From NCBI RefSeq assembly GCF_011947195.1, contig NZ_JAATVY010000013.1, forward strand, positions 62,001-126,000: a DNA stretch of 64,000 nucleotides, given 5' to 3'. Numbering within the stretch: position 1 is the stretch's first letter; every line of letters starts with the position of its first letter. The notes under the pieces were generated by a model. That model saw only the letters and a program-made list of their open reading frames with translations. It had not been told where the DNA came from and did no database searches. Below, piece after piece: positions 58,143 to 64,000 of the stretch. This DNA is from Planosporangium thailandense (GTDB taxonomy: Bacteria; Actinomycetota; Actinomycetes; Mycobacteriales; Micromonosporaceae). The position numbers and the translations under genes are program-made.

Positions 58143-58243
58143 CGGGCTGGCGGTCTGGCGGGGCTGACGGGCTGACGGGGGCTGACGAGCGTCGGGCGGC
58201 CGGACGAGGCGTGAACCGCCCAAACGTCCGATCCAGCCAAAAT

Positions 58244-58271
58244 CTCAGCTGCGACCGAGCGTTGCCGATGT
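58244..58271 (+). promoter_or_regulatory. FliA/WhiG-like promoter before cheA
   Basis: CTCA (58244-58247), 16 bp, GCCGATGT (58264-58271), 25 nt before the cheA TTG. It matches the GCCGATA-type -10 of FliA/sigma-D/WhiG promoters and shares the CTCA-N16-GCCGAT layout with the site before cheB. Confidence 0.6.
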
Positions 58272-58296
58272 GGGCCTCGTAGAAAGGGAGGCGGCG

Positions 58297-60768
58297 TTGG
58301 ACGAGCTCGGCGACATCGTCCAGGAGTTCCTCGTAGAAAGTCACGAGAACCTGGACCAGCTTGACCGTGACCTGGTGGCACTTGAGCAGCAGCCGGGGTC
58401 ACGAGAACTGCTTTCAAGCATTTTCCGGACGATTCACACGATCAAGGGCACGAGCGGCTTCCTCGCTTTCAATCGACTGGAGCGAGTGACGCACGTCGGT
58501 GAGAACCTGCTCGCCCGGCTGCGGGACGGTACGCAGGTGATGACGCCGGAGACGACGGACACGCTGCTGCGGATGGTCGACGTCGTCCGCACCCTCCTCG
58601 CCGCGATCGAGGAGACCGGCGCCGAGGGCGAGGTGGACGTCGAGGGCGTGATCGCCGCTGTTACCAGCTGCATCGACAGCGGCGACGGCGCAGGCGCCAA
58701 GGCGGTGGCCGCTCCGGGCGGCCCCGCGTCCCCGACCGCCGCGTCCCCGGCCGCCGCGTCCGCCGGCGCCGCCGCTACCGCGCCGGCCGCGGGGCCCGCC
58801 ATCACGGAGCCGCCCGCCGCTGTGGTGGGCGCCGCTGTGGTGGGCGCCGCTGTGGTGGGCGCCGGGGCCGCGCCCGAGGCGGGTGCGGAGACCACCCCGG
58901 AGGCCTCCGCGGGCGGTCCGGCCGCCATTGAGGCCGTGGCGCAGGCGTCGTCCGTCGAGGTCTCGCCCCTGGAAGCCGTTGCCGAGCCGGCACCGGACGC
59001 CCCCGTAGCCACGGCCCCGGCCGGATCCGTCGACGACGAGCACGGCCCCGGACAGGCCCGCCGCAGTATCGCGGACAGTTCCATCCGGGTCGACGTGGAT
59101 CTGCTCGACAAGTTGATGAATCTAGTGGGTGAGCTGGTGCTCACGCGTAACCAGATGTTGCGGGCGGTCAACGCGTCGTCGGACGCGACGTTGGCGCGGA
59201 CGGGTCAGCGGCTGAACCTGATCACCAGTGAGCTGCAGGAAGGCGTGATGAAGACGCGGATGCAGGCGATCGACCACCTGTGGTCGAAGCTGCCTCGCGT
59301 CGTGCGCGACCTGTCCAGCTCCGTGGGCAAGCAGGTCCGGCTGGCGATGGAGGGCCGCGAGACCGAGCTGGACCGCAGCCTGCTGGAGGCGGTCAAGGAC
59401 CCGCTGACGCACCTGGTGCGCAACGCCGTCGACCACGGTATCGAGGCGCCGGCCGACCGGGTGGCGGCGGGCAAGGCGGCCGAAGGGGTACTGACCCTGC
59501 GCGCCTACCACGAGGGTGGGCACGTCATCGTGGAGGTCGCCGACGACGGTAAGGGCATGGACCCCGACCGGATCGCCGCGGTGGCGGTCAAGCGGGGGCT
59601 GCTGACCCGTGACCAGGTGGCGCACATGGAGCGCCGGGAGATCCTCAACCTGGTCTTCAAGCCGGGCTTCTCGACCGCGGACAAGGTCACCAACGTCTCC
59701 GGCCGCGGCGTCGGCATGGACGTGGTCAAGACCAACATCGAGCGGATCGGTGGCGCCGTCGACGTCGAATCCACGCAGGGCGAGGGTACGACCTGGCGGC
59801 TGACGATCCCGCTGACGCTGGCGATCATCCAGGCGCTCACCGTGGAGTGCGGCACCGAGCGGTACGCCATTCCGCAGGTCGCGGTGCACGAGCTGGTGTA
59901 CCTGGACGGCCAGAACGGGCGGGTGATCGAGCACGCGATGGGCGCGCAGGTGTACCGGCTGCGCGGCAAGCTGCTGCCGCTGGTGCGCCTGGACGAGACC
60001 TTGGGGCTGCCGGCGCGCAGTGGCGACCGCGACGTCTACGTCGCGGTGCTGCAGGCCGACGGCCGCCGCTTCGGCCTGGTCGTCGACCGGGTACTCAACA
60101 CCGAAGAGGTCGTGGTCAAGGCGCTGTCGTCGCGGTTCAAGGAGATCGGCATGTACGCCGGGGCGACCCTGCTCGGTGACGGGCGGGTCGCGCTGATCCT
60201 GGACGTGCCGGCCCTGGCGCGGCGGGCGCACCTGAACGTGGGTGCGGTCGAACGCGCCCAGGCCGAGATCGACGCCCAGACCCGTGGCGCCGGCGACGCC
60301 GTCGACCGGCTGCTCATCGCCGGGGTCGGCGACCGGCGGGTGGCGATCCCGCTCGACATGGTCACCCGGCTGGAGGAGTTCCCGCTGGAGCGCTTCGAAC
60401 GGGTCGGCGCCCGCGAGGTGGTGCAGTACCGCGACCAGATCCTGCCGGTGCTGCGGCTCGCCCAGCTCCTCGGCGTCTACAGCGCCGCGGAGGACGAGGC
60501 GACCTCGGTGCCGGTGGTCGTCTACACCGAACGCGGCCGCAGCGTCGCCCTCGCCGTGGACCGGATCGTCGACATCGTCGAAGACGTCGTCGACGCCAAG
60601 CGCGACTTCGGCGACGACGGGCTGATGGGCTCGGCGGTCATCCAGCAGCGGGTCACCGAACTGCTCGACGTGCGCCGGGCGATCATGGCCGCCGACCCGC
60701 GGTTCGACGCCGACGCCGACACCGACGCCGGCTACGACATCGAGCAGACGATGATGGTGGGAGCGTAA
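58297..60768 (+). CDS. cheA: Chemotaxis histidine kinase CheA
   Basis: 823 residues from TTG 58297, with GGGAGG 5 nt upstream. The HPt (P1) domain has phospho-His47 in IHTIKGTSGF. In place of a normal P2 domain there is an Ala/Pro/Glu low-complexity stretch (about 125-250). The P3 dimerisation and P4 kinase domains follow (DLLDKLMNLVGELVLTRNQM, HLVRNAVDHGIEAP, VADDGKGMD, GRGVGMDVVKTNI). Two CheW-like P5 domains end the protein (about 500-645 and 660-805). It phosphorylates a CheY not seen here. Operon with cheW 6 bp downstream. Confidence 0.96.
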   Translation: MDELGDIVQEFLVESHENLDQLDRDLVALEQQPGSRELLSSIFRTIHTIKGTSGFLAFNRLERVTHVGENLLARLRDGTQVMTPETTDTLLRMVDVVRTLLAAIEETGAEGEVDVEGVIAAVTSCIDSGDGAGAKAVAAPGGPASPTAASPAAASAGAAATAPAAGPAITEPPAAVVGAAVVGAAVVGAGAAPEAGAETTPEASAGGPAAIEAVAQASSVEVSPLEAVAEPAPDAPVATAPAGSVDDEHGPGQARRSIADSSIRVDVDLLDKLMNLVGELVLTRNQMLRAVNASSDATLARTGQRLNLITSELQEGVMKTRMQAIDHLWSKLPRVVRDLSSSVGKQVRLAMEGRETELDRSLLEAVKDPLTHLVRNAVDHGIEAPADRVAAGKAAEGVLTLRAYHEGGHVIVEVADDGKGMDPDRIAAVAVKRGLLTRDQVAHMERREILNLVFKPGFSTADKVTNVSGRGVGMDVVKTNIERIGGAVDVESTQGEGTTWRLTIPLTLAIIQALTVECGTERYAIPQVAVHELVYLDGQNGRVIEHAMGAQVYRLRGKLLPLVRLDETLGLPARSGDRDVYVAVLQADGRRFGLVVDRVLNTEEVVVKALSSRFKEIGMYAGATLLGDGRVALILDVPALARRAHLNVGAVERAQAEIDAQTRGAGDAVDRLLIAGVGDRRVAIPLDMVTRLEEFPLERFERVGAREVVQYRDQILPVLRLAQLLGVYSAAEDEATSVPVVVYTERGRSVALAVDRIVDIVEDVVDAKRDFGDDGLMGSAVIQQRVTELLDVRRAIMAADPRFDADADTDAGYDIEQTMMVGA

Positions 60769-60774
60769 ACGCAG

Positions 60775-61221
60775 ATGGCAAGTCGTCAGTACGCCACCTT
60801 CGAGGTGGCCGACCAGCTGTTCGGCCTGGACGTGGCCAACGTGCAGGAAGTGCTGTCGTTTCACGAGTACACCCCGGTGCCGCTGGCACCCCGCTCGGTC
60901 GGTGGGCTGTTCAACCTGCGCGGCCAGGTCATCGCCGCGGTCGACCTGCGCGTCCAGCTCGGTCTGCCCCCGCGCGACTTCGAGGGCCCGGCGATGAACG
61001 TGATCGTGCGTACCGAGGAGGAGTCGGTCAGCCTGCTCGTCGACCGCATCGGCGAGGTCGTCGAGCTCGACGACGAGGCGTTCGAGCCCCCGCCGGACAC
61101 GCTCACCGGTCCCAGCCGGGACCTCATCACCGGGGCGTTCAAACTCGACACCCGCCTGATGCTCGCCCTCGACACCGCCCGCGCGGTGCAGACCTCGACG
61201 GCAGACGGCAACGACGAGTAG
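60775..61221 (+). CDS. cheW: Chemotaxis adaptor CheW
   Basis: 148 residues, a single CheW/SH3-like domain linking chemoreceptors to CheA. YATFEVADQLFGLDVANVQEVL, GLFNLRGQVIAAVDLR and SLLVDRIGEVVELD are the conserved family stretches. It lies 6 bp after cheA. A degenerate family B palindrome starts 9 nt after its stop. Confidence 0.96.
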   Translation: MASRQYATFEVADQLFGLDVANVQEVLSFHEYTPVPLAPRSVGGLFNLRGQVIAAVDLRVQLGLPPRDFEGPAMNVIVRTEEESVSLLVDRIGEVVELDDEAFEPPPDTLTGPSRDLITGAFKLDTRLMLALDTARAVQTSTADGNDE

Positions 61222-61230
61222 GTATTCTCC

Positions 61231-61281
61231 GATCTTGGGCGTTCGGGCGACCGGTAAGGGTTGCGCGGGCGCCCAAGACTC
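61231..61281. repeat. Palindrome family B, degenerate copy B4
   Basis: 20-bp arms (61233-61252 and 61259-61278) with 16 Watson-Crick pairs and 2 wobbles, loop GGTAAG. It keeps GATCTTGG at the left tip but has lost the ACACTTGT part. It lies 9 nt after the cheW stop, the same offset as B3 after GH92. Confidence 0.55.
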
Positions 61282-61365
61282 GTTGTGCGGTACTTGTACG
61301 CAGAGTTACCCAGATGTCCGATCGGGGGACAGCGCCGGGAGCAAGACGGTTGCAGACTCGGTGCC

Positions 61366-62268
61366 ATGTACAGCCTCGTCAGCGCTCCCGTCCTCGGATT
61401 CGACCTGACCCGCCTGCCGGGCGGGGCGGCAACCGCTGAAGTGCTTCTCCGTAGCCTCGTGCTCACCGAAAGCGATCTTCATGTTCTCGCCAGCTTCCGC
61501 CTCGACGATTGGGACCGGCTCAACCTGTGGCAGGACGTGGACGACGCGGCTCGCCGGCGGCAGACCGTACGGGACCTGTCGGCCGACCCGGCCGAGGCTC
61601 ACCAGACCCTCTCCCTGCTCGAACAGGCGCCGATCGGCACGATCGACGGCCTGCTGCACTGCCTACGCCACGATGTCCTGGACTGGACCTGGGAGTCGGT
61701 CGAGGGGGCGCCGGCGGTGCAGAGCCCGATCGCGGCCCAGGCCACCTCGGTGATCTGTGACGCGGTCGTCGCCGCGTACCTGCGCGACCTGTTGCCCGTG
61801 CCGACGCGCCGCAGCCTCGCCGCGGGTTGGCTCGCCGCAGCGCGCTGGCTGTCGGAACGCCCGATCCACCTCGGACCGCAGCATGACGACATCTCCGCGC
61901 TGCTGAGCCGGGTCCGGGCGCTCGGCCCGACCCGGTACGTCCGGCTGGCGGCCGCCGCCGCGGCGACCCGCCACCACGGTGTCGGTGGCTGGGCACCTGC
62001 GGTGCACGGCGCCTCGTGGGCGGTCTACGTCTCGGGGCGGATCCGGTCCGCCGCTGCCGCGCAGCTCCAGCTCGTTCAGGCGGTCGACGGCGCGGGCATC
62101 CCGGTGTCCGACCGCGCCGGTGGGGTATGGAACCTGCTCAGCGGCGCGGTGCAGGCCCTGACGGTCCGCGACATGCTCGCCGCGGAAACCGTGAGCCGCC
62201 TCGTCGACCCTCTGATGACGGCGCTCGATCTGAGCGAGGTCGCCGAGCCGGCGGGTTCGGGGGAGTAG
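61366..62268 (+). CDS. Unknown protein inside the chemotaxis cluster
   Basis: 300 residues from ATG 61366 (MYSLVSAPVLGFDLTRLPGG). It is predicted almost wholly helical with many Ala, Leu and Arg residues. It has no signal peptide, no membrane helix and no motif that I recognise. Its position between cheW and cheB on the same strand suggests a role in motility signalling, but its own upstream region has no FliA-like site. The codon bias is normal, so it is a real gene. Confidence 0.8.
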   Translation: MYSLVSAPVLGFDLTRLPGGAATAEVLLRSLVLTESDLHVLASFRLDDWDRLNLWQDVDDAARRRQTVRDLSADPAEAHQTLSLLEQAPIGTIDGLLHCLRHDVLDWTWESVEGAPAVQSPIAAQATSVICDAVVAAYLRDLLPVPTRRSLAAGWLAAARWLSERPIHLGPQHDDISALLSRVRALGPTRYVRLAAAAAATRHHGVGGWAPAVHGASWAVYVSGRIRSAAAAQLQLVQAVDGAGIPVSDRAGGVWNLLSGAVQALTVRDMLAAETVSRLVDPLMTALDLSEVAEPAGSGE

Positions 62269-62407
62269 CCGCCCCCGGACGGGTCGCGGCCCGGCTGTGT
62301 CGCCCGTGCCGCGACCGTACTGATCGACGGGTGTTTGTGGCCGACAAGGCGCTTTGATCCCCGATGGTTCCTGCTTCCCGGAATCGCGCTGTTCACCGCG
62401 TACTTTC

Positions 62408-62435
62408 CTCATCCGGCTCCTGATCGCGCCGATAT
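62408..62435 (+). promoter_or_regulatory. FliA/WhiG-like promoter before cheB
   Basis: CTCA (62408-62411), 16 bp, GCCGATAT (62428-62435), 54 nt before the cheB GTG. It has the same spacing and nearly the same -10 as the site before cheA. Confidence 0.65.
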
Positions 62436-62489: not shown

Positions 62490-63725
62490 GTGATCTCGGT
62501 ACTGGTGGTTGACGACTCGGTCGTCATCCGACGCCTGGTGACAGACGCGTTGGCCGAGGATCCCGAGATCCGGGTGGTGGGTACCGCGCCGAACGGGCGC
62601 GTGGCGCTGGCAAAGATCGAACAGCTCAAGCCCGACCTGGTGACCCTCGATATCGAAATGCCGGTCCTCGACGGCCTGGGCACCCTTCGCGAGCTGCGGC
62701 CCCGGTACCCCCGGTTGCCGGTCATCATGTTCAGCACGCTGACCGCGGCGGGCGCGAGCGCCACGCTCGACGCGCTCTCCGCGGGCGCGAGCGACTACGT
62801 CACCAAGCCCAGCAACGTCGGCAGCTTCGCCGAGTCCAGGCGCAGCGTCCGGGAACAGCTCATCCCACGAATCCACGCGCTCTGCGAACGGGGCCGCCGA
62901 CTCCGCCGCGATCCGGCGGCCGATCGCCCGAACACGTCGCCGGCCGCCGGCGGCTTCTCATTCCCACCCGCCCTCCCCGGTCTCGCCGGCATCCCGCGTC
63001 CGCCGCGGTCGGCACCCGGATCGCCCGGCGCGTCGCCGCCCACACCAGGCCGCCCCGGTGTCGCCCGCCTCGACTCCGCCCGCGGTGAGTCGAGCCGATC
63101 TGAGCGGCGGCGTACCGAACAGGTGGAGGTACTCGCGATCGGCTGCTCGACGGGCGGTCCGGAGGCCCTGTCACAGGTCCTGCAGGCCCTTCCCGAAAAC
63201 CTGCCGGTGCCCGTCGTGGTGGTTCAGCACATGCCGCCGGTGTTCACCAAGATGTTCGCCGAGCGACTCAACCGAATCTGCGCCCTCGAGGTCGTCGAAG
63301 CCGCGGGAAACGAACAGGTGCGGTCCGGCACCGTCTACATCGCACCCGGTGACTTCCACCTCGAGGTGGTCCGTTCCGGCGCCGCGGTGGTGACGAAGCT
63401 GCAGAGCGGTCCACCCGAGAACTTCTGCCGGCCCGCCGTCGACGTGCTGTTCCGGTCGGTCGCGAAGGTGTACGGCGGCAAGGTCGTCGCGACGGTGCTG
63501 ACCGGCATGGGGCAGGACGGCAGGCGCGGCGCCGAGGTGCTCCACGCCGAGGGCGCGGAGGTCGTCGCCCAGGACGAAGCGACCTCGGTGGTCTGGGGCA
63601 TGCCGGGCGCGATCACCCAGGCCGGCCTCGCCGACCTCGTGCTCCCGCTGCCGGAGATTGCCAACCATCTCATCTCGCGGGCCACGGCCACCGGTACGGC
63701 GCGGAGCAAGGAGGTAACGCGATGA
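62490..63725 (+). CDS. cheB: Chemotaxis protein-glutamate methylesterase CheB
   Basis: 411 residues from GTG 62490, with GGGAGG 8 nt upstream. The receiver domain (about 1-122) has phospho-acceptor Asp54 (LVTLDIEMPVLDG) and Lys106. A Pro/Ser/Arg linker (about 140-210) leads to the methylesterase domain with Ser220 (IGCSTGGPEAL), His247 (VVQHMPPVF) and the catalytic Asp in GMGQDGRRGAE. It demethylates and deamidates receptor glutamates for adaptation. Its stop overlaps the cheR ATG (ATGA). Confidence 0.96.
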   Translation: MISVLVVDDSVVIRRLVTDALAEDPEIRVVGTAPNGRVALAKIEQLKPDLVTLDIEMPVLDGLGTLRELRPRYPRLPVIMFSTLTAAGASATLDALSAGASDYVTKPSNVGSFAESRRSVREQLIPRIHALCERGRRLRRDPAADRPNTSPAAGGFSFPPALPGLAGIPRPPRSAPGSPGASPPTPGRPGVARLDSARGESSRSERRRTEQVEVLAIGCSTGGPEALSQVLQALPENLPVPVVVVQHMPPVFTKMFAERLNRICALEVVEAAGNEQVRSGTVYIAPGDFHLEVVRSGAAVVTKLQSGPPENFCRPAVDVLFRSVAKVYGGKVVATVLTGMGQDGRRGAEVLHAEGAEVVAQDEATSVVWGMPGAITQAGLADLVLPLPEIANHLISRATATGTARSKEVTR

Positions 63726-64000
63726 CGCTGACAGCTCAGGAGTTCGCGTACGTCAGTGAGCTGGTACGGCGCCACTCCGCAATCGTCTTGGAGACCGGCA
63801 AGGAGTACCTGGTCGAGGCCAGGCTCCTTCCGCTGGCCCGCCAGGCGGGCATCCCGACCGTCTCGGAGTACGTCAACCGGGCGCAGCAGCGACCGGAGCC
63901 GGACACGCACGACAAGATCGTGGACGCGCTGACCACGAACGAGACGTCGTGGTTCCGCGACGGCGAGCCGTTCCAGACGGTTGCCGAGGCGGTGCTGCCC
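63722..64000 (+). CDS. cheR: Chemotaxis methyltransferase CheR, N-terminal part
   Basis: The first 93 codons only, cut by the window edge. ATG 63722 has a very strong AAGGAGG site 6 nt upstream and overlaps cheB by 4 nt. The visible part is the helical N-terminal domain (VSELVRRHSAIVLETGKEYL) and the start of the catalytic domain (ALTTNETSWFRDGEPF), which is diagnostic of CheR. It adds methyl groups from SAM to receptor glutamates, opposing CheB. Confidence 0.95.
   Translation, partial: MTLTAQEFAYVSELVRRHSAIVLETGKEYLVEARLLPLARQAGIPTVSEYVNRAQQRPEPDTHDKIVDALTTNETSWFRDGEPFQTVAEAVLP

Follow-up and report, generated by a model that had tools for sequence, protein, structure and literature searches.

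The chemotaxis genes of this Planosporangium, a spore-forming soil bacterium, are very probably transcribed from two promoters of the FliA family (sigma-28/WhiG-like), one before cheA and one before cheB, which would divide the che cluster into two transcription units and allow the genes for swimming, steering and c-di-GMP turnover to be activated together. The motile spores of actinomycetes would thereby gain a defined regulon that is open to testing, with the chemotaxis genes included.

Results

The window is a stretch of 64,000 nucleotides that corresponds to C20:62001-126000 in the 7.0 Mb assembly (G000). The earlier note had claimed that the candidate promoters of cheA and cheB share one layout, and both sites proved exact. 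The cheA site is CTCA-N16-GCCGATGT at 58244-58271, with the -35 CTCA at 58244-58247, a spacer of 16 nt and the -10 GCCGATGT at 58264-58271; the cheB site is CTCA-N16-GCCGATAT at 62408-62435, with the -35 CTCA at 62408-62411, the same spacer length and the -10 GCCGATAT at 62428-62435. These sites, and all features of the window described below, are on the forward strand. Both -10 elements fit the GCCGATA type of the FliA family. The -35 departs from the textbook TAAA, with which CTCA, aligned as TCAG or TCAT, shares two of the four positions, and the sites are therefore assigned to the CTCA form seen before flagellar genes of these genomes. Standard sigma-70 promoters were looked for in the che region and none was found. 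By sequence alone, the two sites do not stand out beyond chance, as the window has three matches to CTCA-N15-17-GCCGA versus 3.16 expected from shuffles; their weight derives from context, namely position, enrichment, spacer and conservation.

The first gene of the cluster, cheA (58297-60768), encodes Hpt, dimerisation, ATPase and two CheW domains. Its likely start is TTG 58297, which is preceded by AGGGAGG and lies 25 nt from the -10, whereas an ORF start at 58270, overlapping the -10, is probably wrong. It is followed by cheW (60775-61221), an inverted repeat at 61233-61278 (20-nt arms, 80% complementary, no T run) that is possibly a terminator or processing hairpin, and orfX (61366-62268), a gene for a protein of 300 aa located between cheW and cheB. 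A second inverted repeat (62282-62316; 13-nt arms, 92% complementary) lies 3' of orfX and 5' of the cheB promoter. The cheB gene (62490-63725; receiver and methylesterase domains) starts with GTG 62490, 54 nt from its -10, and cheR (63722-64000) extends beyond the end of the window, where cheY, cheX and cheY are followed by the flagellar cluster from flhF/flhA to fliC (G000:C20:126.6-161 kb). The site before cheB is in a true intergenic gap and is conserved together with that gap. Judging from this layout, two transcription units are likely, cheA-cheW(-orfX) and cheB onward; orfX may form a further unit, since a hairpin-forming repeat separates it from cheW, and the unit ends given here are approximate in view of the repeats at 61233-61278 and 62282-62316.

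Enrichment of the motif before flagellar genes, which the earlier note had put forward as the check on its proposal, was pronounced. The 41 kb che/flagellar region has nine matches to CTCA-N16-GCCGAW versus 0.43 expected (Poisson P 9e-10), out of 82 genome-wide, and all nine have a spacer of 16, with none at N15 or N17. The corresponding regions of three congeners have eight, eight and seven matches at N16. In this genome, N16 sites precede cheA, cheB, the EAL-HDOD gene, flhA, fliM, motA, fliC and a glycosyltransferase gene of the cluster, so that flagellar and chemotaxis genes alike, MCP genes included, are found behind them. The ninth match is inside fliK (C20:146784) and was rejected as a promoter, as its conservation in the congeners is that of coding sequence. 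The confinement to N16 was observed in the cluster, in the upstream regions of GGDEF and MCP genes, and before cheA. The sites for flhA and the EAL-HDOD gene are divergent, lie within 65 bp (G000:C20:133461-133525) and are kept in all four congeners.

A conserved base outside the search pattern was also identified. Of 25 assigned sites, 24 have an A or T four bases before CTCA, compared with 8 of the 24 remaining matches (Fisher 3e-6). In other genomes, 90% of the sites before cheA and cheB have it as well; in the window it is A at 58240 for the cheA site and T at 62404 for the cheB site.

The closest relatives available for comparison are most likely Planosporangium flavigriseum TBRC 198, P. 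mesophilum NBRC 109066 and a MAG labelled Dactylosporangium. In three congeners, sites are present before the orthologous cheA, cheB, flhA, fliM, motA and EAL-HDOD genes, with spacers that are largely different in sequence. A broader comparison was based on 80 named loci obtained with orfX as the query, and the genomes in it are related rather than independent samples. With at most one mismatch, the cheA site precedes 63 of 67 cheA genes in named genomes, at a median of 32 nt 5' of the start, and is absent before cheA in the other four. The cheB site follows the architecture of the cluster: among 70 cheB genes it is present in 20 of 22 clusters in which the gap between orfX and cheB is at least 100 bp (two gapped clusters are without it), versus one of the 48 in which this gap is shorter, an association for which the Fisher value of 3e-14 overstates independence because the lineages are related. 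All four genomes compared from Planosporangium and its closest relative retain the cheB site, with a gap of 146-222 bp before cheB. In P. mesophilum, CTCA-N16-GCCGATAG also precedes a second gene of flagellin type, with Flagellin_N and Flagellin_C, which is located outside the flagellar cluster (L146, G001:C8).

The same promoter pattern was found before many genes for c-di-GMP enzymes and chemoreceptors. When 63 GGDEF domain hits of this genome and its 12 chemoreceptor genes were examined for upstream sites, exact CTCA-N16-GCCGAW matches numbered 12 and four, compared with chance expectations from genome-wide counts of 0.7 and 0.13, respectively; the remaining spacers between 6 and 29 gave three matches altogether in these upstream regions. 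When one mismatch was allowed and A/T at -4 was required, N16 sites were present at about 20 distinct GGDEF genes and seven chemoreceptor genes, whereas no other spacer yielded more than one gene. In three congeners the site is also found at an EAL gene, and in one genome from another family of the order a comparison of coordinates placed a same-strand upstream site at 8 of 57 GGDEF domains versus 0.5 expected. Type IV pilus ATPase genes are encoded on C59 and other contigs, and C59 has no exact CTCA-N16-GCCGAW site. Across the whole genome (7 Mb), there are 77 GGDEF domain matches versus 12 chemoreceptor matches.

No strong FliA was returned for this genome by the first family search. With a congener's FliA as the protein query, which at full length passes TIGR02479, the N-terminal part was located at the ends of C34 (84759-84959) and C59 (1-156) and the C-terminal part at C20 (G000:C20:161054-161182) and C36 (79458-79595), all four at contig ends, so the absence of FliA from this genome was rejected. 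The genome therefore contains fragments of two fliA-type genes, N- and C-terminal in each case; the middle parts of both are missing from the assembly, and complete fliA genes are present in relatives. The simplest reading is that there are two fliA genes whose near-identical middles were lost in assembly and that one of the genes would sit between flgN and fliC, as in relatives. Near-identical middles of fliA paralogues would probably explain how FliA can be hidden in short-read assemblies. Similar fliA breaks are seen in two congeners (G002, G003), and no fliA piece was found by protein search in G001.

Discussion

The FliA/WhiG-type identity that the earlier note had assigned to the two promoters is supported by the enrichment of the sites, their strict spacer and the FliA-family sigma genes in the genome. 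In the mechanism we propose, RNA polymerase with a FliA-family (sigma-28/WhiG-like) sigma factor would read both sites, the cheA site driving cheA-cheW and perhaps orfX, and the cheB site driving cheB-cheR-cheY-cheX-cheY. We infer that FliA binds at the predicted sites and that transcription starts there. Since promoters of the same class are found before flagellin and the flagellar operons, and also before several chemoreceptor genes and a considerable fraction of the GGDEF/EAL genes, active FliA would turn on the set for swimming, steering and c-di-GMP turnover together. By analogy with A. missouriensis, this would most likely occur during the formation of motile spores; that actinomycete likewise forms sporangia and has several sigma factors of the FliA family (FliA1-FliA3), and factors of this family act in its sporangium development (PMC11064477).

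Three other explanations were weighed against this one. It is extremely improbable that both sites are functionless and match a short motif by chance, as could happen in a genome of high GC content. Such a reading could draw on the count in the window, which equals the shuffled expectation, and on several other genome-wide matches that fall within genes, but it is contradicted by the strong local enrichment and strict N16 dependence, by the conservation of the sites across genera though the spacers change, and by the conserved A/T at -4, a base that is not part of the pattern. Very unlikely, too, is that the sites are promoters for a different alternative sigma factor, such as one of the SigB/SigF type. 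Factors of that type are also encoded in the genome, and the CTCA at -35 is unlike the textbook TAAA; against this, the -10 GCCGATA/G is of the FliA/WhiG type, flagellin and motor genes are also behind such sites, FliA-type genes are present in the genome, and the SsdA motif of A. missouriensis, GnTT-n14-CGGGTA, is clearly different (PMC10733313).

The remaining explanation concerns the number of units rather than the sigma factor, and holds that only the cheA site matters, with cheB transcribed mainly from one operon that runs from cheA through cheW and orfX to cheB, the arrangement of Actinoplanes and allied genera. In 48 clusters, mostly from those genera, cheB is indeed close behind orfX (most often 13 bp), and 47 of these tight clusters have no cheB site. 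For Planosporangium such an arrangement is rather unlikely, as the 146-222 bp gap and the cheB site are maintained in all four genomes of the genus and its closest relative, and a hairpin-forming repeat precedes the cheB site.

The che promoters extend the known class of FliA/WhiG promoters. They share with the FliA/sigma-28/SigD/WhiG class a GCCGATAA-type -10 and a location before flagellar, chemoreceptor and chemotaxis genes. The classical FliA class has TAAA at -35, whereas the sites described here have CTCA, an A/T four bases upstream and a spacer that is nearly always 16. Aligning the TCA of CTCA with TAAA gives a spacing of 15 nt, which is the classical FliA register. A CTCA-form promoter consensus has reportedly been published for Actinoplanes flagellar genes. 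A lineage-wide variant of the cheA -10, GTCGAT in place of GCCGAT, was seen in 36 cheA genes and is the usual form in Actinoplanes and allied genera (L317-L388), from which most of the 36 come.

According to PMC8325347, WhiG-like sigma factors direct the flagellar genes of Actinoplanes; the same paper provides the closest comparison for the c-di-GMP genes. Of 20 promoters predicted for WhiG of Rubrobacter radiotolerans, 12 have mapped starts, and five of them precede c-di-GMP enzyme genes (PMC8325347). In that species type IV pili are the targets, and RsiG together with c-di-GMP holds the sigma factor (PMC8325347), whereas the predicted targets here are flagella, chemotaxis and many more GGDEF genes. 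In the literature searched, neither che promoters nor c-di-GMP genes were found as FliA targets of A. missouriensis, and no report of a c-di-GMP part on this scale was found for zoospore formers. The scale of FliA-type promoters before c-di-GMP genes in zoospore formers appears to be new.

In zoospore-forming actinomycetes, control by the flagellar sigma factor likely extends beyond flagella and chemotaxis to a large block of c-di-GMP enzymes. Of the roughly 60 GGDEF genes considered for this Planosporangium, the block would comprise about 12 when only exact sites are counted and up to about 20 when one mismatch is allowed. A surplus of GGDEF proteins in zoospore-forming actinomycetes is noted in PMC10746217, and our results offer a concrete answer, in that a good part of it looks like members of the flagellar regulon. 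If true, part of the unusually high GGDEF count in zoospore formers would be explained, and spore c-di-GMP turnover would be a FliA-timed programme.

The architecture of the che cluster corresponds to the F5 chemosensory class of Actinobacteria as defined in PMC10746217, since CheA has two CheW stretches, matching the extra CheW domain of that class, and the order cheA-cheW-...-cheB-cheR matches its AW...BR. The F5 description there makes no mention of orfX, which here lies between cheW and cheB. This position recurs in many motile actinomycetes. The orfX protein has no Pfam or NCBIfam family and is predicted to be all-helical. An AlphaFold model from 43 sequences was good (pLDDT 91), whereas one from five sequences was poor. 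Foldseek gave no PDB match with E under 1 for the model and a second structural comparison gave Z up to 3.5, from which novelty of the fold does not follow. In Planobispora, Planomonospora, Spirillospora and Actinomadura hibisca, orfX is instead located in flagellar clusters without nearby che genes, so its product is probably a flagellum-linked protein.
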